This document shows, one piece after another, positions 8,370 through 20,383 of a stretch of 49,999 nucleotides of DNA. Source of the DNA: Egibacteraceae bacterium. Lineage in GTDB: Bacteria; Actinomycetota; Nitriliruptoria; Euzebyales; Egibacteraceae. A program made the position numbers and the translations under genes. The stretch spans positions 1-49,999 of the forward strand of contig DATLGH010000058.1 in NCBI GenBank assembly GCA_035540635.1. Reading direction: 5' to 3'. The notes beneath the pieces were generated by a model. That model had not been told where the DNA came from. It was given only the letters and a program-made list of their open reading frames with translations, and did not search any database. Position 1 is the first letter of the stretch. Each line of letters opens with the position of its first letter.

Positions 8370-8447
8370 GACCGAACCCTCCCCATCTCGCCGCTCGCAC
8401 CGGTAACTGTCTCTGACATACTCCCTGGTGGACGCCCAAAAAGGCAA

Positions 8448-8469
8448 CTTAAGAAATCCTGAAGATTCT
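8448..8469. promoter_or_regulatory. two 11-bp-phased CTTAAG/CTGAAG repeats
   Basis: CTTAAG at 8448 and CTGAAG at 8459 are exactly 11 bp apart and lie about 80 bp before the minus-strand start at 8369. Spacing, sequence and distance match the four-copy array at 7705-7748, so the same regulator probably acts at both places. Confidence 0.5.
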
Positions 8470-8604
8470 CGGTGGGCACGCGACCGCGCCGTGGTCGGCG
8501 GGGGGTCGGGCGGCGCTGTCGGCCGACGGGTCGGCGGTCTGCCGAGCGGTCGGCGCCCGGGCAAAGCGGCCGCTCGGAAGCGGCCGGCCGGGCGGCGGGG
8601 CAGC

Positions 8605-9429
8605 ATGGGCGCCATGCGCCGACCCCCCGCCGTGCAGCGCTACCGTGACGCGTTCGTGCAGCGCGACCTCGTCCAGGAGCTGGAGGCGCTCATCCACCGG
8701 GCCAACCCGCCGCTCACGACGCTCGACGTCGACGGGTGGCAGCTGCGCAGCGCGCGGGGACTCTCGCCGACGGCGAACTCGGTGTGGCCGCGCGCTACGC
8801 GGGGTCGCCTGCCGCTGGCGGCGAGGGTGGAGCAGGTGGAGCGGTTCTACGCCAACCGCCGGCTGGCGCCGCGGTTCCTCGTCAGCCCGTCGGCGGATCC
8901 GGGCAACCTCGACCTCGTGCTCGCCGGGGCGGGGTACACCGCCACCGCACCGGTCGAGGTGCGCACGGCACGCGTCGAGCGCCTCGCCGACGTCGACGCC
9001 GCCGCGCGCGGCGTCACACTGTCAACCGCGCCCGCGCCGTCGTGGCTTCACGCGTGGGCACGCCTGGCCGGCCAGGCGGAGGAGGTCCTCGACACGGCCG
9101 GTGCGCTGCTCGGCGGGGTGGCCGCCGAGCAGGCGTTCGCCCACCTCCACGACGTCGGCGCGGTGGTCGCGGTGGCGCGCGGCGTGTGCTACGGCGGCTG
9201 GCTTGGGGTGGACTACCTCTCTACCGCGCCGGCGTGGCGCACCGCGGCGACCGGGCGGGCGCTGCTCGGCGCGCTCGCGCGTTGGGCGGCGGGCCACGAG
9301 GCCGAACAGGCCTACTGCGCCGTGGACACCGCCGACCCTGCCGCGCGGCAGCTGATCGACGGCGCGGGGTGGCGCCGCGCCTACAGCTACCGGTTTCGCG
9401 TCCACCCGCTGCCCCCCGCCCGCGGCTGA
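8605..9429 (+). CDS. GNAT-family N-acetyltransferase
   Basis: The product has 274 residues from the ATG at 8605; the upstream open frame to 8428 is Gly/Arg-rich and not protein-like. The N-terminal half (LTTLDVDGWQLRSARGLSP, then VEQVERFYANRRLAPRFLV) is typical of actinobacterial GNAT proteins with a degenerate first acetyltransferase-like unit. The C-terminal unit has GWLGVDYLSTAPAWRTAATG, matching the acetyl-CoA-binding strand and the R/Q-x-x-G-x-G/A turn, then a final YSYRFRVHP strand. The substrate is unknown. A decayed copy of this gene lies at 13272-13548, and in both places a 19-residue membrane peptide gene points toward it. Confidence 0.8.
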   Translation: MGAMRRPPAVQRYRDAFVQRDLVQELEALIHRANPPLTTLDVDGWQLRSARGLSPTANSVWPRATRGRLPLAARVEQVERFYANRRLAPRFLVSPSADPGNLDLVLAGAGYTATAPVEVRTARVERLADVDAAARGVTLSTAPAPSWLHAWARLAGQAEEVLDTAGALLGGVAAEQAFAHLHDVGAVVAVARGVCYGGWLGVDYLSTAPAWRTAATGRALLGALARWAAGHEAEQAYCAVDTADPAARQLIDGAGWRRAYSYRFRVHPLPPARG

Positions 9430-9843: not shown

Positions 9844-9903
9844 TCAGGCGAACAGCAGGATCAGGATGATGATGAGGACCAGGGTTCCGAGTCCGATGTA
9901 CAC
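9844..9903 (-). CDS. 19-residue single-span membrane peptide, copy 1
   Basis: A GTG at 9903 is preceded by a near-perfect Shine-Dalgarno (AAGGAGGA on the minus strand, 9908-9915) with a 4-nt gap. It opens a 20-codon frame ending TGA at 9844. The product is MYIGLGTLVLIIILILLFA: a short polar/Gly start and one hydrophobic span with no charged residue. A second copy at 13615-13674 differs at only two residues, with a different but equally strong Shine-Dalgarno. Conservation of frame and translation signals in two copies argues that it is made. It resembles small membrane peptides such as type I toxins or regulators of membrane complexes, but no function can be assigned. Confidence 0.65.
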   Translation of the reverse strand: MYIGLGTLVLIIILILLFA

Positions 9904-10157
9904 GACGTCCTCCTTGTCTTGCCGGCGGCGGTGCGGGGCGTTGTCGTGCCGATACCCAGCGTGCCGGGTAGCCAACACCGTCCGGTCGGCCGGTCCCGGG
10001 CCGGCGGTGCGAGGACTCCTCGTCGGTCGTGGAAATCCGCCCGGTCATCAGCGCCGGCCGCAAACCACTTCCCGCGGCGGCGCAGGCGCTCGTGGCGGCT
10101 CGAGCCCGACCTTCCGGGCTATGACCTGAGGGGCGCTGCGCGCGGCTGGTCTTCGGG
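9904..10157. other. intergenic, upstream region of the 19-residue peptide
   Basis: The first 90 bases resemble the region upstream of copy 2 (shared GATACCCAG and GGTCGGCCGGTCC-type stretches), so the promoter was duplicated with the peptide. The rest holds nothing I can identify. Confidence 0.4.
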
Positions 10158-10530
10158 CGTGTTCTGGCGGGTTGACCAGCGCGCCGACCTGCGTCTGGTC
10201 GGCCTGGCGTTGGTGGTCACCCGCGACGGTGGCGTGCCGGTGCTGTGGCAGCCCTATGCGGGCAACCGACCGACGTCACCCCGTTCACCGGCGTGCTCGA
10301 CGAGCTCGTCGCCCGCTGGCGCGACCTGGGCCCGACGAGTTGACCGTGGCCTAAAGACGCCGGGCAGAACTCCACCGTCAACCAGGGCACCTGGAAGCGA
10401 TGGGGATCAGGTTCATCACCTCACTGCCGCCGTCGAATCACCCCGACCGGCTCGCCGTGCCCCACAGCCGGTTCGGTGTCGTCGACGATGACCGCTTCGC
10501 AGGGCTGATCGGCCAACCGAGATCGACCGG
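10158..10530 (+). mobile_element. remnant of IS1634-type (IS4 superfamily) transposase
   Basis: Fragments of one transposase appear in successive plus-strand frames. QRADLRLVGLALVVTRDGG with VPVLWQPYAGN comes first (10170-10270). PDELTV follows near 10325. Last is IRFITSLPPSNHPDRLAVPH with SRFGVVDDDRFAGL (10400-10505). This order and wording match the central DDE region of IS1634-like transposases (LVVTRDGGVPL, PGN, and the SLPPS-HPDL block). Frameshifts and a lost start and end make it inactive. I could not find terminal inverted repeats. It sits among other broken genes. Confidence 0.75.
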
Positions 10531-11092
10531 ATCCTGTCCCCCGCTGGCTGGACCGGTGACCGCCTTCGAGCCGGCCGGGCACTTCGCCAGCATGGCCGTC
10601 CTCGACGGCGGCGCCCAGGATCGCCGGCACCTTCGCCAGATCACCAGACGTACCGTTGTACCTGCCCGGTCCCGCCAGGGGTCCTCACCCGGACCGCGCG
10701 CGCCGACCGAGGGTCCTCGCGCCGCTGCCCGGAGGACTCGTCGTCACCGGATACGCCATCGGGCTCACAGCAGCCGGGAACATTCCTCATCGTCCGCCGC
10801 GACGTCACGTGACCGCGCCGCAGCGTCGACGAAGCCCAGGTGGCCGATCACGCTGCGACACCGAGCGTCGGTCGAACCTCGACGGCCGGGGATGGGCGCC
10901 CAGACTGTTTCGGGGTCGTTGCCGCAGCCCAGCGATGATTTCGCTCGTCCGACGTCGTCCATCTGTGGACGGCGGTGCTACCTACCGGATCCATGGAGGC
11001 CGGTCGCTTGCGAGTATGCGGAAACCGTCACAGCATCGAAGATGTTGACGTCGTCGAGACTGCGCGAGGCCGCAGAGAAGGAGTTCGGTGAC
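10531..11092. other. no gene recognised
   Basis: About 560 bases between the transposase remnant and the VOC gene. Several frames are open on both strands, but none gives protein-like sequence. The last 15 bases carry the Shine-Dalgarno AAGGAG (11078-11083) of the next gene. Confidence 0.4.
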
Positions 11093-11560
11093 ATGGCTTC
11101 GGTCGACCCCATACCTCAGGACTATCCCCGGGTCACCCCCTACCTGCACGTCGACGGCGCAAGCGCCGCGATCGACTTCTACACCGGGGTCTTCGGGGCC
11201 ACGGAGCGGATGCGCATGCCTGGGGACCGCCCGGAGAGCATCGGGCATGCGGAGATCCAGCTTGGCAACAGCGTGATCATGCTCGCCGACGAGTTTCCCG
11301 ACATGGGCATCGTCGGCCCGAAGACGATCGGGGGCTCCCCGGTGACGATCCACGTCTACGTCGAGGACGTCGACGCCGTCTTCGCCAAAGCCGTGCGGGC
11401 GGGCGCCCGGGCGCTGGAGGAGCCCACCGATCAGTTCTACGGGGATCGTTCCGGGCAGTTCGAGGACCCATTCGGGCACCGCTGGAACGTTGCTTCCCAT
11501 GTCGAGGACGTCCCTGCCGACGAGATGCAGCGACGAATGGCGGACGCCACCGGTGGGTGA
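11093..11560 (+). CDS. VOC/PhnB-like family protein
   Basis: The product has 155 residues from ATG 11093, with AAGGAG nine bases upstream; an open frame extends far upstream but is not protein-like. The single vicinal-oxygen-chelate unit pair is clear: VTPYLHVDGASAAIDFYTGV with FGATERMRMPG, then HAEIQLGNSVIMLADEFPDM, IHVYVEDVDAVFAKAVRAGA and FEDPFGHRWNVASHVEDV. This wording matches PhnB/YdfO-like VOC proteins of unknown substrate, often annotated as glyoxalase-like. It is intact and stands alone among pseudogenes. Whether it is an enzyme or a binding protein is not known. Confidence 0.85.
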   Translation: MASVDPIPQDYPRVTPYLHVDGASAAIDFYTGVFGATERMRMPGDRPESIGHAEIQLGNSVIMLADEFPDMGIVGPKTIGGSPVTIHVYVEDVDAVFAKAVRAGARALEEPTDQFYGDRSGQFEDPFGHRWNVASHVEDVPADEMQRRMADATGG

Positions 11561-11619
11561 CGACTGCTCGGCCCTCGGCTGAGCGGACAGCGACACCGCC
11601 CTTGGTCACGCGAGGACGA

Positions 11620-11942
11620 GCGGAACTTGAAGGGGCCCGTCCCTACTGGCTGGCGACGATGACCAGCCAGTGCCGTCCGCATGTGGGCCCGGCTTGCGGT
11701 CATGGTGGACGGTCGAGTGCACTTCTGCGCGAAACGAAAGGTCGAAGAAGGTCAGGAACCTCGCTGACAACCCCGCCTGTGTCCTCACGGCGGGCACGGA
11801 CACGCTCGACGCCGTGGTCGAAGGTGTCGCCACGGCCGTCGGCGACAATGCCACCGTTCGCCGCGTCGCCGAGGCGTACGCGGCCAAGTACGGATGGCGC
11901 CCCGACCAACAGGACGGGTTGCTATGGGCATCAGCGTGCTGA
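11620..11942 (+). pseudogene. broken pyridoxamine 5'-phosphate oxidase-like (FMN split-barrel) gene
   Basis: YWLATMTSQCRPHV begins in one frame near 11640. MVDGRVHFCAKRK follows in another near 11700. A third frame gives KKVRNLADNPACVLTAGTD, DAVVEGVATAVGDNATVRRV and AEAYAAKYGWRPDQQDG. Joined, they match the N-terminal two-thirds of F420/FMN split-barrel proteins annotated as pyridoxamine 5'-phosphate oxidase-like. Two frameshifts and a missing C-terminus make it a pseudogene. Its closest relatives are proteins of unknown substrate. Confidence 0.65.
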
Positions 11943-12164
11943 CCAAGAGCGCGATGACCCGCGTTGCTCCAGCACGATATGCGCGGCCGACATTCGTCGC
12001 CATGCGGGCGGAGGTACTGCTGCAAGCGTGAGCTCGTCAGCCGGCGCAGCCGTTGGATGCGAGACGATCGGGCGCTGCGTGGCACGATCTCCCCGGTGAC
12101 TCCAGACCCGCCGCAGCGCGCATGCCCGCGGTGCACACTTGTCGGCCCGAGCCGCAGCTAGTGT

Positions 12165-12352
12165 GACCGCCATGAAATCACCATCTACCGCACCATGCCC
12201 CCCACGACGACCCGGACGCATCCCTGGCCTTCGCGCGCCTGCAGGCAAGCGACGAGAGGTCGTCGCGGAGCCGACCGACCAGCCGTAGGGGGTCCGCGAG
12301 CGCGCGTTCCTCGATCCCGCAGGCAACCTGGTCCGCTTCAGGAGCTGCGCTG
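12165..12352 (+). pseudogene. remnant of a second VOC-family gene (internal deletion)
   Basis: ITIYRTMPP then HDDPDASLAF can be read near 12178-12230 across two frames, as at the start of many glyoxalase-like proteins. About 40 bases later VAEPTDQP, a TAG, then GVRERAFLDPAGNLVRF give the typical end (usually QPYGVRE, so TAG stands where Tyr is expected). The middle of the gene is deleted. It cannot encode a functional protein. Confidence 0.6.
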
Positions 12353-12377
12353 ACCCGCCCGGAGGAGATGGTTCGCA

Positions 12378-12866
12378 ATGGCTGAGAGGAAGCCCGCAAA
12401 GAAGGGCAAGAAGAAGGCCGCCAAGAGCACCACGGCGAGCGGCAAGAGGTCCAAGACCTTCACGGACGCGGAACGATCTGCGATGGCCGAGCGCGCCCAA
12501 GAGGCGAAGGCAGAGGCGCGTGCGAGCAAGAAGGCGGACGGGGAACGCGACGTGCTCGCCAAGATCGCCGAGATGCCGGAACCGGATCGCACCATGGCCA
12601 AGCGGCTCCATGGGATCATCACAGCCAGCGCGCCAGCCCTCTCGCCGAAGACCTGGTATGGGATGCCCGCGTATGCCAAAGACGGCAAGGTCGTCTGCTT
12701 CTTCCAAAGCGCGCACAAGTTCAATTCGAGGTACGCGACGCTCGGGTTCAACGACGAGGCGAAGCTCGACGACGGCGCCATGTGGCCGACCGCTTTCGCG
12801 CTGAAGGAGCTGACCGCCGCCGAAGAGGCGAGGATCGCCGCGCTCGTGCAGAAGGCGATGAGCTGA
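12378..12866 (+). CDS. DUF1801-family protein with basic N-terminal tail
   Basis: The product has 162 residues. The first 65 are Lys/Ala/Glu-rich ([18 protein letters not shown] and onward), probably disordered and possibly nucleic-acid binding. From about residue 70, [36 protein letters not shown] and [20 protein letters not shown] match the DUF1801/YdhG group, small proteins of unclear role. The end, [19 protein letters not shown], is complete. It is the only other intact gene in this pseudogene stretch. The biochemical role is unknown. Confidence 0.8.
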
Positions 12867-13271
12867 GCTCCGCACCACCGCCAACCGCGAGTTGGCGCAG
12901 TCAACGCTCGCTCACCCGCGTGGGCAGACTGGATCGCCCGGCTCACACGGGCGGAGGGATGATCCGCCGGGCTCAGCGCGCGCCTACAACGCGCCCCGGG
13001 TTTCGGTCGTTCTCGGTGGGGCATGCCCGAGCCTGGAGCCCCACCCCCGGGAAAGTCCGTGGTCAGCTGACTGCCCCGGACCCTGGCGGTACTAGGCCGC
13101 CGGCTCAGTACCGGCGGGTGGGGCTCCGCCAGCCCGCAGGCCTCAGGTGTCCCCAGACCGGGCGGAGCCCGTCACTCCCTCGCCGTCGGGAGGGCATGCG
13201 CGTTCGCGCTCGTGGGGCGAACCGCCAGTCGCGACGGCTCGCAGCCGCTGCAGAGGTCACCGCGCGGTGCA
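12867..13271. other. no gene recognised
   Basis: About 400 GC-rich bases between the DUF1801 gene and the GNAT pseudogene. Overlapping open frames exist on both strands but none is convincing. Confidence 0.4.
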
Positions 13272-13548
13272 GCATGGGCCCCATGGTCGACCCCCCGCCG
13301 TCCAGCGCTACCGCGAGGCATTCGCTCACCGCGACCTCGTCTATGAGCTCGAGGTGCTCATCGACCGCGCGAATCCCGCCCCTGTCGACGCTCGACGTGG
13401 GCGGGTGGCAGCTGCGCTGGACTACTGCGTGGTGGGGGCGGCCGACACGTCCCTGAGCGGCCTCCTCGTGGCGTCGGGCTGGCGGCGCCTACACCTACCG
13501 CTTCCGCGTGCACCCGCTCCCGCGGCTCGGCGCCACGTGTTGAAGTGA
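13272..13548 (+). pseudogene. decayed copy of the GNAT acetyltransferase gene
   Basis: From ATG 13272 the DNA follows the GNAT gene at 8605. The protein-level match is RPPAVQRYREAFAHRDLVYE and LEVLIDRANP, then STLDVGGWQLRW in a shifted frame. After about residue 50 the copy jumps to the C-terminal end (SGWRR, then YRFRVHPLPR across frames) before a stop. Most of the catalytic domain is therefore deleted, and at least two frameshifts are present. The downstream convergent 19-residue peptide gene is also duplicated, so a segment rather than a single gene was copied. Confidence 0.7.
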
Positions 13549-13584
13549 CGCCGCATGCGGGCCGCCAACGGTCACGGCAAAGGA

Positions 13585-13610
13585 AAAGGACCCCGGCTGC
13601 GGGGCCCTTT
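13585..13610 (-). terminator. intrinsic terminator after the 19-residue peptide, copy 2
   Basis: AAAGGACCCCG (13585-13595) and CGGGGCCCTTT (13600-13610) form an 11-bp stem with one mismatch and a 4-nt loop. On the minus strand it is followed by a T-rich tract. It lies just after the peptide stop and before the end of the convergent GNAT pseudogene, and may work in both directions. Confidence 0.65.
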
Positions 13611-13614
13611 CTGT

Positions 13615-13674
13615 TCAGGCGAAGATCAGGATCAGGATGATGATGAGAAGCAGGGTGCCTAGTCCGATGTACAC
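13615..13674 (-). CDS. 19-residue single-span membrane peptide, copy 2
   Basis: The GTG at 13674 follows an AGGAGGAGGA Shine-Dalgarno (minus strand, 13678-13687) and opens 20 codons to a TGA at 13615. The product is MYIGLGTLLLIIILILIFA, equal to copy 1 except for two conservative changes. An intrinsic terminator follows directly and a plausible promoter lies 40-65 bp upstream, so this is a complete one-gene transcription unit. The neighbouring GNAT copy has decayed but the peptide has not, which suggests it is under its own selection. Function unknown. Confidence 0.65.
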   Translation of the reverse strand: MYIGLGTLLLIIILILIFA

Positions 13675-13712
13675 GGGTCCTCCTCCTGGGGCAGCGGTGC
13701 GGCGTTACCTTC

Positions 13713-13740
13713 TCGATACCCAGGGTTGTGCGGTCGTCAA
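13713..13740 (-). promoter_or_regulatory. promoter of the 19-residue peptide, copy 2
   Basis: On the minus strand TTGACG (13735-13740) and TATCGA (13713-13718) are 16 bp apart. The block CTGGGTATCG around the -10 is identical in the region upstream of copy 1. Confidence 0.45.
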
Positions 13741-14132
13741 CCTCGGCCGATCGGCCGGTCCGGCTACGCGGGCGGCGTCAGCGGCGTGTCGGCGACCAGC
13801 GTGTCGAGACAAGCCTCGAAGACCGCGAATCCTCGGGCAGGAACGACCCTCGTAGACGCAGAGGTCCCGTCGGTCGCCTTCAGGTCACGACGGTCCAGCC
13901 GTTCGGAAGCCCTCGTCCGGTGATTGACCGCAGTCCCATGACAAGCCCGTGTCCCGCCGCCGCAAGCCCTTGTCAAGGGGCCCTGAAGGGGCTGACCGGG
14001 GGGGTCAGCCCCTTCCTCCCCCAAGGCCGCCCCCGCAGGCATCATGCGCGACGTTCCGGGGGCGCGCATCACCATTTCTGATGAACGTCGACCGGCGCCG
14101 CCGCCGGCGATGCCCGTCCCTCTCGGCGGCGG
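13741..14132. other. no gene recognised
   Basis: About 390 bases. A minus-strand frame (13764-14075) ends ARGFAVFEACLDTLVADTP, which looks somewhat like the tail of an enzyme, but no family can be named. The rest appears non-coding. Confidence 0.35.
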
Positions 14133-14474
14133 CTACCCGGGCGGCTGCCAGTATCCGAGGTGGTTGCCCCAGGGATCGGTGAAGGGCAGCCAGGCGGCAC
14201 CGTCGACCTCCTCGGGGCGCTCGGCGTCCATAGGGATCTTCATGCGCTTCAGCCGTCGCCGCGTCGCCGCCACGTCGTCGCTCGCCAGGGCGAGCTGAAC
14301 GCCCGGTTTGCGTGACGGCACGAGGCTCACCCGCTGCCCACCGGCGTCCATCTCGGCCACGCGGACGCCCTCGTGCTCCACCGTCCGCACGTGCGCGAAA
14401 CCGCAGACGTCGGTGTAGAACCCGACGGCCTCGTCGACGTCGCCGACCTGGATGATCACCTCGGTAATCGTCAT
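14133..14474 (-). CDS. VOC-family (glyoxalase-like) protein
   Basis: The product has 113 residues. It begins MTITEVIIQVGDVDEAVGFY with TDVCGFAHVRTVEH and ends WLPFTDPWGNHLGYWQPPG, the paired beta-alpha-beta units of the vicinal oxygen chelate fold. Metal-ligand positions are uncertain. The middle LALASDDVAATRRRLKRMKI is the second helix. It lies 27 bp downstream of glnE on the same strand but is probably unrelated to nitrogen metabolism. The substrate is unknown. Confidence 0.85.
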   Translation of the reverse strand: MTITEVIIQVGDVDEAVGFYTDVCGFAHVRTVEHEGVRVAEMDAGGQRVSLVPSRKPGVQLALASDDVAATRRRLKRMKIPMDAERPEEVDGAAWLPFTDPWGNHLGYWQPPG

Positions 14475-14501: not shown

Positions 14502-17500
14502 TCACGCATCGTAGAAGTAGCGCTCGTGTACCTTGCGCACCCGGCGCATGGCCCGCCCGAGCTCCTCGACGAACGCCTGCGCGCCAGGTGCCGGATGGCC
14601 GAGCATGCGCGCGATGCGCTCCTGGTCGCGTGGGCCGGGGGGCAGCTCGTCGGTGCGGCGCAGACCCCCGAGATAGAGCATGTTGCGGATTCTCGCGAGC
14701 AGGCTGTAGCCCTCGCGCAGCCAGCGGGCGTCCCCTCCGTCGATCACCCCTTCACGGGCGAGCGCCTCCACCGCTGCGAGCGTCCCGGGCGTGCGCAGGC
14801 TCGGGCGGTGGCCGCCCAGCTGCAGCTGGAGCAGCTGGACCGTCCACTCGGCATCGGACAGGCCGCCCGGGCCGAGCTTGAGGTCGACGCGGTCACCGAC
14901 GTTGATCCCCCCGGGGCGGTCGGCGGGCGGGTGGGGCCGCACAACCGGCCGGGCGGGCGGTGGGCGACCGGGCCGGAACGCGCGGCGCTGCGCTGGTGCC
15001 CGCACCGGGTCCCCCTGAGCGGCACCGCGCTCGCGCTCGACGCGAGCCTTCATGCGCCGGACGGCCTGGACCCGCTCGGGCGGCGGCCGCTTGGGGTAGA
15101 CGAGGTCGGTAACCGCATCGACGAAGGCGGCGCCGAGCTGCCGGTCACCCGCGACCGGTCGCGCCTGGGTGAGCGCTTGCAGCTCCCAGTGCTCCCCCCA
15201 CCGCTCGTAGTAGGAGCGGTAGGAGTCGAGGGTGCGCGCGAGCGGGCCGTCCTTGCCCTCGGGGCGCAGGTTCAGGTCGACCCGGAACGCCTGGCCTTCC
15301 GGGGTGATGTCGCCGAGGGCGGGCAGCAGGCGACCGACGGCCTTCAGTGCCTCCTCCCGGTGTTCCGCCGGCTCGAACACGAGGAGGACGTCGAGGTCGC
15401 TTGCGTAGCCGAGCTCCCGGCCGCCGAGCTTGCCGAGCGCCACGACTGCCATCCGCACCTCGGAGGGCACGACGAGGGACACCGCCCGCTCCAGGCAGGC
15501 CTCGGCCAGCGCGCTGAGCTCGGCCGCCACGTCGACCACGTCCGCCTGGCCGGTGAGGTCGCGCACCGCGATGCGCGCCACCTCCCGGCGCTTCAGCCGC
15601 CGCAGGGCGTCGGAGGAGGCTGCCTCGTCCTGTCCCCGTCGCCGAAGGCCTTCCGCGAGGCGCAGGTAGTCCGACGACTCGAGACGCCGGCCGAGCCCGG
15701 ACAGGTCGGCGAGGTAACCGATGACCTCGGGCTGGCGTTCCAGCCACTGGCCGACGAGCTGGCTCCGGCCGAGCACCTGGGCGAGCATCTCCCCCACCGG
15801 CGGGGTGTCGCGGAGGGACCGCAGGAACACCGGGGACCCCCCGAGCCGGTCGGCGAGAGAATGGAAGGCCGCGAGCCCACCGTCGGGGTCGGGCGCTGCT
15901 GCGAGCGTGGGCAGCAGCGCGGGCAGGAGCATCCGGAACAGCTGCGCGCCCCGGCTCACGCCGCTCGCGAGCGCGCGAAGGTGCTCGAGCGCGGCGCCGG
16001 CGTCGGCGAAGCCGAGGGCCGCGAGCCGGTCCCGCGCGGCCTCGTCGTCGAGGCCGCCGCCGTCCGGCCCCCCAACGACCTGGTCGGCGCGGGACAGCTC
16101 CGCGAAGCGCTCGAGCAGGGGCCGGTAGAAGAGCTTCTCGTGGAGGCGGCGCACGTAGCCCTGGACCCGGGCGAGCTCCTTGTCGAACTGCTGGAGCGCG
16201 CTCTTGCCCGTGAGGTCGTGGAAGCCGAGGTTGCGCGCGAGGCAGCCGCGTTCCTCGTCGTCTGCGGGGACCGTATGCGTGCGGCGGAGCCGGTAGAGCT
16301 GGAGCCGGTGCTCGACGGTTCGCAGGAACTGGTAGGCGTCGCTGGCGAGGTTCGCGTCGCCCTCGTCGACGTAGCCTCCGGCAGCCAGGGCCTGGAGGGC
16401 TTCGAGCGTGTTGCCGCTGCGCAACGTCTCGTCGTAGCGGCCGTGCACGAGCTGCAGCAGCTGGACGGCGAACTCGATGTCGCGGATGCCGCCGGGTGCG
16501 AGCTTCACCTGCCGGTTCCCCGCGCGCTGGACCTCCCGGGAGGACTCGACGACCCCTTTCATCCGCTGGATCTCCGCCACCGCCTCCGCCTCGAGGCGGT
16601 CGGGCCACACGAACGGCCGGGTCGCTTCGACGAAGTCGCGGCCGAGTCGGGCGTCCCCAGCGACGTGGCGCGCCTTCAGCAGCGCCTGGAACTCCCACGC
16701 CTTCGCCCACCGCTCGTAGTAGGCGAGGTAGGCCTCGAGGCTGCGCAGGAGCGGTCCGTCCTTGCCCTCGGGGCGCAGGTTCGCGTCCACCTCGTACGCG
16801 CGGCCCTCCGGGGTCGTCTCGCCGAGCAACCGCAGGAACGCCGCCGCGACGCGGCGCGCGGCCTCGAGGTCGCCGTCGCCCACGAACATGACGTCGACGT
16901 CGGAGACGTAGTTGAGCTCGCGGCCGCCGAGCTTGCCCATCCCGATCACCGCGACCCGGGCGTCGGGGCGCTCGGTGTCGACGAGGTGGTCGAGAGCGGC
17001 GGCGAGGATGCCCTCCGCGAGGTCGGCGAGCTCGGCCGCCGTGGTCGGGGTGTCGGCGAGGCCGAGCAGGTCCCGGGCGGCGACGCGCAGCAGGCCGCGA
17101 CGCTGGAAGGCCGCGAGCCTCCGTGCGGCGTCCTCGGGTGTCGCCCGGAGCTCCGCGGCCGCGCGGCGCTGCACGGTCGCGGCGTGCCACGGCTCGAGTT
17201 CGCCGGTGAGCACGGACAGCGCTGCCGGGCTGTCGGCGAGGAGCTCGCCGAGCGCCCGGCTGGCGCCGGCGACGGTCGCCGCGCGGGTCACGAGGGGCTG
17301 CCCCGCGCGCTCCCCGGCCACGAGGCTGGCCCAGCCGTCGGGGTGCGCCTCGGCGAGGCGGGCGAGCAGCGGGAGCGCGTGGTTGACGTTGAGCGTGCGG
17401 GCCAGGGCCTCGACGAGCGGCTCGGCGTCGGGTGCCGGCCCCTCGTCCCCCCACAGGCCGAGCGCGTGGAGCTGGGGCACCGCGGTGTCCGCGGCGATCC

Positions 17501-17576
17501 CGAGGCGGGCGAGCATGCCCTGCCCGCCGGCGGACCAGCGGTCGCGTACCACCATGGGGACGTCCGGCTCGTCCAT
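14502..17576 (-). CDS. glnE: bifunctional glutamine synthetase adenylyltransferase/adenylyl-removing enzyme
   Basis: The product has 1024 residues. GlnE adds AMP to, or removes it from, a tyrosine of glutamine synthetase according to nitrogen status. Two nucleotidyltransferase halves are present: the N-terminal deadenylylase with VIGMGKLGGRELNYVSDVDV and the C-terminal adenylylase with VALGKLGGRELGYASDLDV. Each is followed by an R-P-E-G-K-D-G-P block (ANLRPEGKDGPLL, LNLRPEGKDGPLA) and a helical domain (FAVQLLQLVHG, WTVQLLQLQLG). A Pro/Arg-rich insert of about 40 residues interrupts the C-terminal half before LKLGPGGLSD. It starts 4 bp after glnA and surely forms an operon with it. Confidence 0.95.
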   Translation of the reverse strand: MDEPDVPMVVRDRWSAGGQGMLARLGIAADTAVPQLHALGLWGDEGPAPDAEPLVEALARTLNVNHALPLLARLAEAHPDGWASLVAGERAGQPLVTRAATVAGASRALGELLADSPAALSVLTGELEPWHAATVQRRAAAELRATPEDAARRLAAFQRRGLLRVAARDLLGLADTPTTAAELADLAEGILAAALDHLVDTERPDARVAVIGMGKLGGRELNYVSDVDVMFVGDGDLEAARRVAAAFLRLLGETTPEGRAYEVDANLRPEGKDGPLLRSLEAYLAYYERWAKAWEFQALLKARHVAGDARLGRDFVEATRPFVWPDRLEAEAVAEIQRMKGVVESSREVQRAGNRQVKLAPGGIRDIEFAVQLLQLVHGRYDETLRSGNTLEALQALAAGGYVDEGDANLASDAYQFLRTVEHRLQLYRLRRTHTVPADDEERGCLARNLGFHDLTGKSALQQFDKELARVQGYVRRLHEKLFYRPLLERFAELSRADQVVGGPDGGGLDDEAARDRLAALGFADAGAALEHLRALASGVSRGAQLFRMLLPALLPTLAAAPDPDGGLAAFHSLADRLGGSPVFLRSLRDTPPVGEMLAQVLGRSQLVGQWLERQPEVIGYLADLSGLGRRLESSDYLRLAEGLRRRGQDEAASSDALRRLKRREVARIAVRDLTGQADVVDVAAELSALAEACLERAVSLVVPSEVRMAVVALGKLGGRELGYASDLDVLLVFEPAEHREEALKAVGRLLPALGDITPEGQAFRVDLNLRPEGKDGPLARTLDSYRSYYERWGEHWELQALTQARPVAGDRQLGAAFVDAVTDLVYPKRPPPERVQAVRRMKARVERERGAAQGDPVRAPAQRRAFRPGRPPPARPVVRPHPPADRPGGINVGDRVDLKLGPGGLSDAEWTVQLLQLQLGGHRPSLRTPGTLAAVEALAREGVIDGGDARWLREGYSLLARIRNMLYLGGLRRTDELPPGPRDQERIARMLGHPAPGAQAFVEELGRAMRRVRKVHERYFYDA

Positions 17577-17580
17577 GGTC

Positions 17581-18909
17581 TTACAGGGTCGGCAGGTACT
17601 TGCTCACCTCGTAGGGCGTGACCTGCGAGCGGTAGTCGTCCCACTCCACCCGCTTGTTGCGCAGGAAGAAGTCGAAGACGTGCTCGCCGAGCGCCTCGGC
17701 GACAAGCTCGGACTCCTCCATCGCGCGCAGCGCCCCGTCGAGGTTGTGCGGCAGGCTGCCGATGCCGGCGGCGCGACGTTCGGCGTCGGTGAGCTCGTAG
17801 ATGTTGTCCTCGGCTTCCGGCGGCAGCTCGTAGCGCTTCTCGATGCCCCGCAGACCCGCGGCGAGGATGACCGAGAAGGCGAGGTAGGGGTTGCACGCCG
17901 GGTCGGGGACGCGGTACTCGATCCGTGCCGACGAGCCCTTCTTCGGCTTGTACATCGGGATGCGCACGAGCGAGGAGCGGTTGTGGCGTCCCCAGGAGAC
18001 GTACACGGGCGCCTCGAAACCGGGGACGAGGCGCTTGTAGGAGTTCACCCACTGGCAGCAGACCGCGGTGATCTCGCGGGCGTGGGTGAGCAGCCCGGCG
18101 ATGAACTGCTTTGCGACCGGCGACAGGTGGTAGGGGTCGGTCTCGTCGTAGAAGGCGTTCGTGTCGCCGTCGAACAGCGACACGTGCGTGTGCATGGCGC
18201 TGCCCCAGTGCTCGGCGAGGGGCTTGGGCATGAACGTCGCGTATATCCCACGACGCATGGCAACCTCCTTCACCACCAGGCGGTAAGTCATGAGGTTGTC
18301 GGCCATGGTCAGCGCGTCGGCGTAGCGCAGGTCGATCTCGTGCTGGCTCGGTGCGACCTCGTGGTGGGAGTACTCGACGGATATGCCCATGGCCTCCAGA
18401 GTCTGGATGGCCTCACGGCGGAAGTCGGACTGCACGTCCATAGGGGTGAGGTCGAAGTAGCCGCCGTTGTCGAGCGGCGTCGGGTCGTTCGGGCCCTTGA
18501 AGAGGAAGAACTCCATCTCCGGGTGGACGTAGAAGCTGAACCCCATGTCCGCCGCCCGCGCGAGGTTGCGCCGCAGAACCTGACGGGGGTCGGCGGTGAA
18601 CGGCTCGCCCTCGGGGGTCCGGATGTCGCAGAACATGCGCGCCACCCCGGTGTCCTCGTCGGTGCGCCACGGCAGGACCTGGAAGGTCCCCGCGTCGGGC
18701 ACGGCGAGCATGTCGGACTCCTGCACACGGGCGAAGCCGTCGACGGCGGAACCGTCGAAGCCGATCCCCTCGGCGAACGCGCCCTCGAGCTCGGACGAGG
18801 TGATCGCCACGGACTTCAGCATGCCGAGCACGTCGGTGAACCACAGTCGCACGAAGCGGATGTCGCGCTCCTCGACCGTGCGCAGCACGTACTCCTGCTG
18901 TTTGTCCAC
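17581..18909 (-). CDS. glnA: type I glutamine synthetase
   Basis: The product has 442 residues from the GTG at 18909 with GGGGAG upstream; a longer frame to 19104 reads into unrelated sequence. It makes glutamine from glutamate, ammonia and ATP. Seen motifs: IGFDGSAVDGF (N-terminal latch region), FYVHPEMEFFLF (metal-binding Glu), HEVAPSQHEIDLRY, HTHVSLFDGD, and RIEYRVPDPACNPYLAFSV. The region EDNIYELTDAERRA holds a Tyr where GlnE modifies the E. coli enzyme. The length and the ending EHVFDFFLRNKRVEWDDYRSQ are closest to actinobacterial GlnA2-type enzymes, which sit beside glnE in Mycobacterium. It follows amt and precedes glnE on one strand. Confidence 0.95.
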   Translation of the reverse strand: MDKQQEYVLRTVEERDIRFVRLWFTDVLGMLKSVAITSSELEGAFAEGIGFDGSAVDGFARVQESDMLAVPDAGTFQVLPWRTDEDTGVARMFCDIRTPEGEPFTADPRQVLRRNLARAADMGFSFYVHPEMEFFLFKGPNDPTPLDNGGYFDLTPMDVQSDFRREAIQTLEAMGISVEYSHHEVAPSQHEIDLRYADALTMADNLMTYRLVVKEVAMRRGIYATFMPKPLAEHWGSAMHTHVSLFDGDTNAFYDETDPYHLSPVAKQFIAGLLTHAREITAVCCQWVNSYKRLVPGFEAPVYVSWGRHNRSSLVRIPMYKPKKGSSARIEYRVPDPACNPYLAFSVILAAGLRGIEKRYELPPEAEDNIYELTDAERRAAGIGSLPHNLDGALRAMEESELVAEALGEHVFDFFLRNKRVEWDDYRSQVTPYEVSKYLPTL

Positions 18910-19048
18910 GGGCGCTCCCCTCACGGCGGTGCTGGTCGGGGCATCGTAGCGTCCGTACACGTGGAGAAGCGCAGCCCCGGCCGCTCGGGCGGTGACCGGT
19001 GCTGCGCTGCTCTGCGGGATCCGCGAGCCCCCTGCGGGCCCGCGGGTA

Positions 19049-20383
19049 TCAGCCGTGCATGGCCGGTGGCTTGGCTTCCCGGGGCGGCAGGCCACGCGCG
19101 ACACCAGTCGTCGGCTCGGTCACCGGGCCGGCCGGGTAGGCCGACGTGCCGAGCGCCGCCTCGGGGTAGGCGTACATGCCGTGCTCGTGGATGTCGAGGC
19201 CCTCGACCTCCTCGTCCTCGGACACGCGCAGCCCGATCACCGCCTTGATGACGGAGAGCAGCAGCGCCATGGCGACGGCGACCCAGAGGGCCACGGCGAG
19301 CACGCCGATGACCTGCGCCAGGAGCAGGGACACGCCGCCGCCGTAGAACAGGCCTTCCTCGGTGTGCGCGAGGCCGACCCACAGGGTGCCGACAATGCCG
19401 CAGACGCCGTGGACGCTGACCGCGCCGACCGGGTCGTCGACACGGATGGCGTCGAAGAAGGCGACGGCGAGCGCGACGACCACACCGGCGACGAGGCCGA
19501 CCGCGAGGGCGCCGAAGTTGCTCACGACGTCCGCGCCGGCCGTAATGCCGACGAGGCCGGCGAGGATGCCGTTGCCGGTCATGGCGACGTCGAACTTGCC
19601 GTAGCGCACCCGCGTGAAGTAGGCCGCGGCGACCCCCCCGGCGCCACCGGCCAGCGCCGTGGTGACGAGTACCTTCGCGATCGTCTCCCCGTCCAGCGCG
19701 AGCACCGACCCGCCGTTGAAGCCGAACCAGCCGAAGAAGAGCAGGAGCACACCGAGCATGCCGAGCGGCATGGAGTGGCCGGGGATCGCCCGCGCCTTGC
19801 CGTCGGGGCCGAACTTGCCGATGCGCGCTCCGAGGAAGACGGTGGCCACCAGGCCGGCGATGCCACCGGTCATGTGCACGATGGTGGAGCCGGCGAAGTC
19901 GGTGAAGCCGAGCGCGTCGAGCCAGCCGCCGCCCCACGTCCAGGCGCCGACGATCGGGTAGATCAGCGCGGTCATGCCGGCGGCGATGGCGACATAGGCC
20001 CCGAACTTCATCCGCTCGGCGACCGCCCCGGAGACGATCGTCGCGGCGGTGGCCGCGAACATCGCCTGGAACGCGAAGTCCATCTCGAGCGTCGCGTCGG
20101 GCGCGTAGCTGCCGCCGATCAGTGCGAAGCTGTCCGACCCGAACAGCCCGGCGACGTTCGTGCCGTACATGAGCCCCCAGCCGATGAGGAAGTACACGAC
20201 CATGCCGACGGCGATCGTCATGAGGTTCTTCATGACGATGTTCGCCGCGTTCTTCGACCGGACGAGTCCAGCCTCCAGGCACATGAAGCCCGCGTGCATG
20301 ATGAACACCAGCACGGTGGCGACCATCAGGTAGATCACCATCATGCTGAGCTCGAGGCCCTCGACAGCCTCCATCGCGTCCAT
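19049..20383 (-). CDS. amt: ammonium transporter (Amt/MEP/Rh family)
   Basis: The product has 444 residues and about 11 membrane spans. It conducts ammonium/ammonia across the membrane when external ammonia is scarce. The Amt signature DFAGSTIVHMTGGIAGLV carries the conserved Asp and first pore His; the second pore His is in GAVSVHGVCGIVG. Other hallmarks are GWFGFNGGS and the start MVATVLVFIMHAGFMCLEAG. The cytosolic tail (GLDIHEHGMYAYPE) has the usual HExG end that meets GlnK. No glnK/glnB gene is adjacent, which is unusual. It sits 139 bp upstream of glnA on the same strand. Confidence 0.95.
   Translation of the reverse strand: MDAMEAVEGLELSMMVIYLMVATVLVFIMHAGFMCLEAGLVRSKNAANIVMKNLMTIAVGMVVYFLIGWGLMYGTNVAGLFGSDSFALIGGSYAPDATLEMDFAFQAMFAATAATIVSGAVAERMKFGAYVAIAAGMTALIYPIVGAWTWGGGWLDALGFTDFAGSTIVHMTGGIAGLVATVFLGARIGKFGPDGKARAIPGHSMPLGMLGVLLLFFGWFGFNGGSVLALDGETIAKVLVTTALAGGAGGVAAAYFTRVRYGKFDVAMTGNGILAGLVGITAGADVVSNFGALAVGLVAGVVVALAVAFFDAIRVDDPVGAVSVHGVCGIVGTLWVGLAHTEEGLFYGGGVSLLLAQVIGVLAVALWVAVAMALLLSVIKAVIGLRVSEDEEVEGLDIHEHGMYAYPEAALGTSAYPAGPVTEPTTGVARGLPPREAKPPAMHG

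Follow-up and report, generated by a model that had tools for sequence, protein, structure and literature searches.

Two YIGLGT micropeptide genes and a conserved family of 19-24-residue bacterial membrane peptides with a probable role in general stress

The 49,999-nucleotide stretch of Egibacteraceae DNA analysed here (contig DATLGH010000058.1; 'the window') carries two genes for a 19-residue hydrophobic peptide that opens with the motif YIGLGT. The peptides belong to an autonomous family of YIGLGT micropeptides of 19-24 residues, present in several phyla, that probably serves as an effector of the general stress response. We also lean, a little more guardedly, towards a specific picture of its members, as minimal single-span peptides of the inner membrane that are induced by general stress and contact a partner through the invariant YIGLGT end. 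A 19-residue gene conserved over phyla lies at the lower limit for protein-coding genes, a length that standard annotation usually skips.

Two near-identical genes in the window

An earlier note on this DNA had picked out two GTG-started frames for near-identical hydrophobic peptides. Both are present as claimed, on the minus strand, each with a very strong Shine-Dalgarno sequence just 5' of the GTG (Table 1). The two products, hydrophobic at all 19 residues, agree at 17 of them, only residues 9 and 17 being changed; 6 of the 60 nucleotides differ, altering four codons, two synonymously and two conservatively. No third copy was found in the 3.46-Mb genome with the peptide patterns used. The peptide frame, ribosome-binding site and terminator of copy 2 had been described as intact, and this too holds: the frame and Shine-Dalgarno sequence can be read, and beyond the frame comes a hairpin of 12 bp whose tail is rich in T. 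A terminator scan placed a plus-strand site at this hairpin, the number of sites in the scan being no higher than in shuffled sequence.

Conservation of the peptide frame

Across 66 genomes of Nitriliruptoria, the class to which the window belongs, the peptide was found in 17 with a strict pattern (none with the reversed control) and in about 19 with a relaxed one. A loose pattern, which leaves residue 2 (Y2), residue 7 (T7) and the stop free, gave 22 matches in the same genomes against three for its reversed control. Twenty of the 22 start YIG[LI]GT and one more, a second match in genome G046, starts AIGLGT; all 21 stop at codon 20, after 19 residues, and the remaining match is a chance one near the start of a 158-residue open reading frame (ORF). 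The peptide frame is judged to lie far above chance expectation.

Over 20 members from this class, identity is 0.83 in the coding sequence but only 0.29 in the upstream flank, 0.31 in the downstream flank and 0.39 across the ribosome-binding site. The ratio of non-synonymous to synonymous change (pN/pS) is 0.42 overall and 0.62 in codons 10-19, which the search pattern does not name. Three subgroups of the wider family behave similarly, with pN/pS of 0.56-0.60 in pattern-free codons and coding identities of 0.61-0.79 against 0.27-0.37 in the flanks. The family of minimal membrane peptides that the earlier note thought possible is thus real: frame, length and ribosome-binding site are kept in relatives, and synonymous and non-synonymous rates are unequal even where the pattern is silent (0.56-0.62). 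Each of the two window ORFs is judged to be a genuine gene.

Distribution and sequence features

A scan of 84,980 genomes for ATG/GTG-Y-I-G-[LF]-G-T followed by five hydrophobic codons, with no stop in the pattern, returned 107 stretches. All but one of these (106/107) are stand-alone ORFs of 19-24 residues, the single exception being a 225-residue protein of a different kind. Members come from Actinomycetota, Betaproteobacteria, Bacteroidota and others, on phylum labels taken partly from the titles of metagenome-assembled genomes (MAGs). This strict scan imposes YIGLGT, and the true family may be wider. A loose pattern applied to 61 Streptomyces genomes recovered YIGLGT peptides only, in three of them.

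The lineages differ in how the peptide ends. Nitriliruptoria and other actinobacterial MAGs have 19-mers with FA or T at the end, Streptomyces and Acidimicrobiaceae have 24-mers ending in MMLRRR and VRRA respectively, and the 19-21-mers of Betaproteobacteria end in FR and those of Bacteroidota in RRR. None of 115 members contains Asp, Glu, Pro or Cys, or has Lys or Arg before residue 17; positive charges are confined to the C-terminus and mean hydropathy is about 3.1. A conserved short ORF with a ribosome-binding site and a predicted span makes the peptide a candidate bacterial small membrane protein (≤50 residues, one span).

In Streptomyces rhizosphaerihabitans the 24-residue form occurs three times, on three contigs (L038, L042, L064). 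The peptide also occurs on three IMG/VR contigs, L139, L140 and L141 (MYIGLGTLLIIVILILIFRGRL and two others), and may travel on viruses, or these contigs may be host DNA. A tblastn search of plasmids with the 24-mer gave no match, a result made uninformative by the low-complexity filter.

The string YIGLGT was not found in a literature search and no Pfam or NCBIfam model describes the peptide, which suggests that the family is undescribed as far as that search could tell. A global catalogue of small ORFs accepts lengths from nine residues up (PMC11364881) and probably holds raw entries for the peptide, without description.

SigB-type promoters

Both window copies are preceded, at about -73 to -42, by a site resembling promoters of the SigB type. 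The Bacillus subtilis SigB consensus is GTTTAA-N12-14-GGG[AT]A[AT], and experimentally active promoters of this type are listed with GGGCAC, GGGCAT and GGGTAG, GGGCAC and GGGTAG being proven -10 elements (PMC8346170). The pattern GTTK-N14-16-GGGTAT, in a form picked after both window sites had been seen, occurs six times in the whole genome, twice at the peptide copies. This genome has one sigma factor of the SigB/F/G family above the family cut-off, and the same-genus orthologue of the peptide has GTTCAG-N14-GGGTAG upstream, as read by eye.

The motif is most pronounced in Streptomycetaceae, where 23 of the 35 regions upstream of the peptide contain GNNT-N14-16-GGG[CT]A[CT], when dinucleotide shuffles would give 1.25. 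In other actinobacteria a GNNT-type pattern is found in 8 of 53 regions (0.78 expected) and GTT-N14-18-GGGTAH in 4 of 53 (0.12 expected), both window copies being counted as one event; outside Actinomycetota the SigB-type motif was seen in none of 22. An earlier and narrower scan, over 180 nt, had given 8 sites for the SigB motif with GGGTA[ACT] (0.6 expected) and 22 for GGGTA[ACT] alone (12.7 expected), and was later refined into the dinucleotide-shuffle scan. A sigma-70 promoter scan found nothing. The SigB regulon promoter, taken as GNNT/GTTT-N12-16-GGG[TC]A[CTG], is matched at both copies and enriched in actinobacteria, and the motifs argue for SigB control mainly in the window and in Streptomycetaceae.

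One actinobacterial locus, L030 (1501-2041, +), combines the 19-mer MYIGLGTVILIIIIFLLVR and a clear SigB-type promoter with a truncated-haemoglobin-like gene that follows.

Neighbouring genes and leaders

CsbD is a classical general-stress protein controlled by SigB. Its family is the most frequent (six cases) among the 95 Pfam families given by 97 ORFs adjacent to the peptide, followed by sigma-70 domains (three); PRC-barrel is one of the families that occur twice. A CsbD profile picked up 10 genes in the 100 kb of sequence that lies no more than 450 nt from the peptide and three in the other 679 kb, a concentration seen in Acidimicrobiia and Betaproteobacteria. In Streptomycetaceae, genes for SigB-like sigma factors and for PRC-barrel proteins are repeatedly found beside the peptide.

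In part of the Nitriliruptoria (12 loci; examples in Table 1), the peptide gene is directly followed, about 10-50 nt downstream, by a gene for a one-helix protein of 75-98 residues with the pattern LSN-x-TQ-x-hIW...GGAxxYGVAVEEVxGRDCIEHDxxxYCA, which matches no Pfam or NCBIfam family.

The betaproteobacterial loci and one Verrucomicrobia-labelled MAG share a conserved leader of approximate form GCACAGAC...CGTGCT...ACCCTC-CAGAGGGT, with a hairpin just 5' of the ribosome-binding site. Its appearance suggests a regulatory RNA; an Rfam search of the leaders returned unrelated tRNAs only, and no family fits.

Table 1. Coordinates of the peptide genes, their signals and neighbouring features (window positions unless a locus is named)
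Feature	Position	Strand	Basis or remark
Peptide copy 1, VYIGLGTLVLIIILILLFA	9844..9903	minus (9903->9844)	GTG start, TGA stop; homologues known
Shine-Dalgarno AAGGAGG, copy 1	9909..9915	minus	sequence
SigB-type promoter-like site GTTGGC-N13-GGGTAT, copy 1	9952..9976	minus	sequence against PMC8346170 consensus
Peptide copy 2, VYIGLGTLLLIIILILIFA, at the glnE-VOC site judged ancestral	13615..13674	minus (13674->13615)	sequence, synteny
Shine-Dalgarno AGGAGGAGGA, copy 2	13678..13687	minus	sequence
SigB-type promoter-like site GTTGAC-N14-GGGTAT, copy 2	13716..13741	minus	sequence against PMC8346170 consensus
Bidirectional terminator-like hairpin after copy 2	13585..13611	.	predicted fold: 12 pairs, T-rich on either side
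Full-length GNAT (Pfam Rv0428c_C)	8428..9429	plus	convergent with copy 1; not kept beside the peptide elsewhere
Frameshifted remains of the GNAT, with the N- and C-terminal pieces only	13264..13521	plus	convergent with copy 2; DNA identity to full GNAT
VOC/glyoxalase gene, upstream of copy 2	14133..14474	minus	order same in G001
glnE (glutamine synthetase adenylyltransferase), next upstream of VOC	14502..17576	minus	in G001, G014 and G017 likewise a short way upstream of the peptide
One-helix protein, L019	about 1180-1420	minus	
One-helix protein, L017	1168-1422	minus	
One-helix protein, L024	1146-1421	minus	
One-helix protein, L077	711-938	plus	
Conserved leader, in L046, L083, L118, L127, L093, L122, L138	about 120 nt before peptide		

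Origin of the two copies

The duplicated stretch consists of three matching blocks: the N-terminus of a GNAT gene (13264-13417, with 84% DNA identity to 8595-8748), its C-terminus (13419-13521, with 74% identity to 9309-9413) and, at 79%, the peptide together with the sequence upstream of it. The shortening and frameshift that the earlier note had seen in the second GNAT are evident, since only these two blocks match the full gene, its middle being deleted. It had also been observed that the peptide frames point at the GNAT, and the genes are indeed convergent at both copies, with 414 nt between the intact GNAT and copy 1.

Copy 2 shares the glnE-VOC-peptide order with G001, a genome of the same genus (both genes at 76% identity), and glnE lies 5' of the peptide in G014 and G017; copy 2, rather than copy 1, is therefore judged to occupy the ancestral position, with copy 1 the added copy. 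A peptide-GNAT stretch would have been duplicated beside the ancestral glnE-VOC-peptide site, after which the GNAT of copy 2 decayed whilst the peptide was kept. The locus is in this sense a small natural experiment, in which an intact peptide next to a decayed GNAT suggests that it is the peptide itself that is kept.

A functional tie to the GNAT did not survive comparison. At the relatives' loci read by hand, the same-genus orthologue included, no GNAT of this kind turned up; the idea of a GNAT-peptide module was rejected and the neighbour is judged incidental. A role linked to glnE and nitrogen was likewise set aside, since the adjacency is confined to four genomes of one family and is more likely to reflect synteny than function.

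Upstream of copy 2, the genes amt, glnA and glnE follow one another (14502-20383, -) and form an ammonium-assimilation cluster. Between the copies, at 10100-12160, several broken or fragmentary frames surround what seems to be an intact glyoxalase-like gene, suggesting a region of insertion or decay.

Proposed role and alternatives

We infer a role that begins with transcription of the peptide gene by a sigma factor of the SigB/SigF type, from a promoter some 50-70 nt upstream, as its promoter motif would imply. The peptide, whose frame is conserved, would be translated alone from its strong Shine-Dalgarno sequence, and the all-hydrophobic chain would insert as one short helix. Because the only charges in relatives are the C-terminal R(R)(R), the positive-inside rule predicts that the N-terminus faces outwards and the C-terminus inwards. 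Under osmotic or related stress the YIGLGT end may then pack with a partner in the membrane, or with itself, to stabilise or tune it; this end has the small residues Gly4, Gly6 and Thr7, and Tyr2 would lie at the membrane edge. The complex-stabilising role suggested in the earlier note is likewise a candidate.

Several points weigh against this reading. The neighbours are mostly diverse, so that no partner is pointed to, and the peptide is only patchily distributed (about 19 of the 66 class genomes, 3 of 61 in Streptomyces). Most Nitriliruptoria members (family f4) have no recognisable SigB-type promoter, the GTTK pattern was picked with both sites already in view, and related genomes are not independent. 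The Nitriliruptoria 19-mers are uncharged, so that their topology rests on relatives.

The peptide could instead be a structural subunit that stabilises one constitutive membrane complex, in the manner of KdpF, CydX or PetN, with stress control incidental. The invariant N-terminal motif and length point to a specific contact, and the one-helix protein encoded directly downstream at 12 loci speaks for it. However, that protein is found only at Nitriliruptoria-type loci and at neither window copy, and amongst the many families nearby there is no recurrent gene of a large membrane complex; we consider such a subunit unlikely. An anchor for general-stress signalling, similar to Prli42, would tether or tune the machinery that activates SigB rather than act as an end effector. 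SigB-like genes adjoin the peptide in several Streptomycetaceae and, with the SigB-type promoters, would form a feedback loop, but at most loci neither a SigB nor an anti-sigma gene is close by, Prli42 has a basic N-terminus, and the family extends to Proteobacteria, in which SigB is not known. This makes an anchor distinctly improbable.

The earlier note's suggestion of a toxin brings to mind the type I toxins such as Ibs and Fst, membrane-depolarising hydrophobic peptides repressed by antisense RNA. The Ibs-type length and hydrophobicity, the predicted hairpin that encloses the start region of copy 1 and the conserved betaproteobacterial leader are all compatible with such a toxin. Yet in Nitriliruptoria the flanks diverge to background (0.29-0.31, as against 0.83 in the coding sequence), so no antisense gene is conserved there, and neither an antisense RNA nor a conserved non-coding flank was found in the class. 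The peptide is usually present in single copy per genome, in several phyla and close to stress genes; its Shine-Dalgarno sequence is strong, its start region is on average 41% unpaired (112 loci) and its residues are strictly conserved beyond what hydrophobicity asks. With no partner evident either, the toxin suggestion is unsupported, and we hold it to be quite unlikely. Least probable is a leader peptide whose translation regulates a downstream gene. A same-strand gene lies within about 45 nt downstream in part of the Nitriliruptoria, but the downstream genes vary between lineages, with no one gene shared across them, a terminator-like hairpin follows copy 2, and residues are conserved up to the C-terminus while codons vary.

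If the proposed role as a general-stress effector is correct, then some of the smallest known genes code for a side of bacterial stress physiology that annotation has missed, and the YIGLGT family is among the smallest widely conserved families of protein-coding genes. The single motif makes the family findable in deposited genomes, Ribo-seq and proteomics data, and the promoter type and stress-linked neighbours give a directly testable role.

Relation to known systems

The nearest sequence resemblance is to the N-terminal helix of DUF3309 (Pfam PF11752), a protein of about 50 residues and two helices, whose N-terminus M-x-LGTILLIILxLxLxG is closely like the peptide GLGTLLLIIILILL (example MGLGTILLIVLVLFLVG in L151). 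DUF3309 is also present in 10 of 12 sampled non-actinobacterial genomes that carry the peptide, and in none of 21 relatives of the window, though the peptide is present there. The peptide has the invariant YIGLGT and ends after the first helix, without the LPTWPHSR-x-WGY loop and second helix. Membership of DUF3309 was rejected, given this missing half, a 21-mer with no Pfam match and a 24-mer with no DUF3309 match; descent from it cannot be proven by twelve alike hydrophobic residues. In the literature searched, DUF3309 came up in one paper, on an unrelated matter. TatA/E was rejected as well: the likeness (E 0.2-0.8) extends to the first helix only, with no FG hinge or amphipathic helix. The hydrophobic-basic sorting tail GG_III-CTERM (NCBIfam NF041738) is marginally matched by the Streptomyces 24-mer (23.0 bits, cut-off 22), other members among those tested being under the cut-off or unmatched; that tail is the C-terminal end of large proteins, whereas here the tail is the entire gene.

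The type I toxins Ibs, Fst and Ldr are alike in length (18-35 residues) and hydrophobicity, and differ from the peptide in its conserved motif, its wide and mostly single-copy spread and its lack of conserved antisense or flanks in the class. KdpF, CydX, SpoVM and other small membrane proteins share with it a length below 50 residues, one membrane segment and a history of being overlooked by gene callers; the peptide is shorter, at 19 residues, spans several phyla and has a SigB-type promoter and no partner operon. We know of no sequence likeness between the peptide and Prli42 of Listeria, which is longer (31 residues) and has its place in the pathway above SigB, at the stressosome. Prli42 nevertheless resembles the peptide as a minimal membrane protein of one helix with a link to the SigB response.

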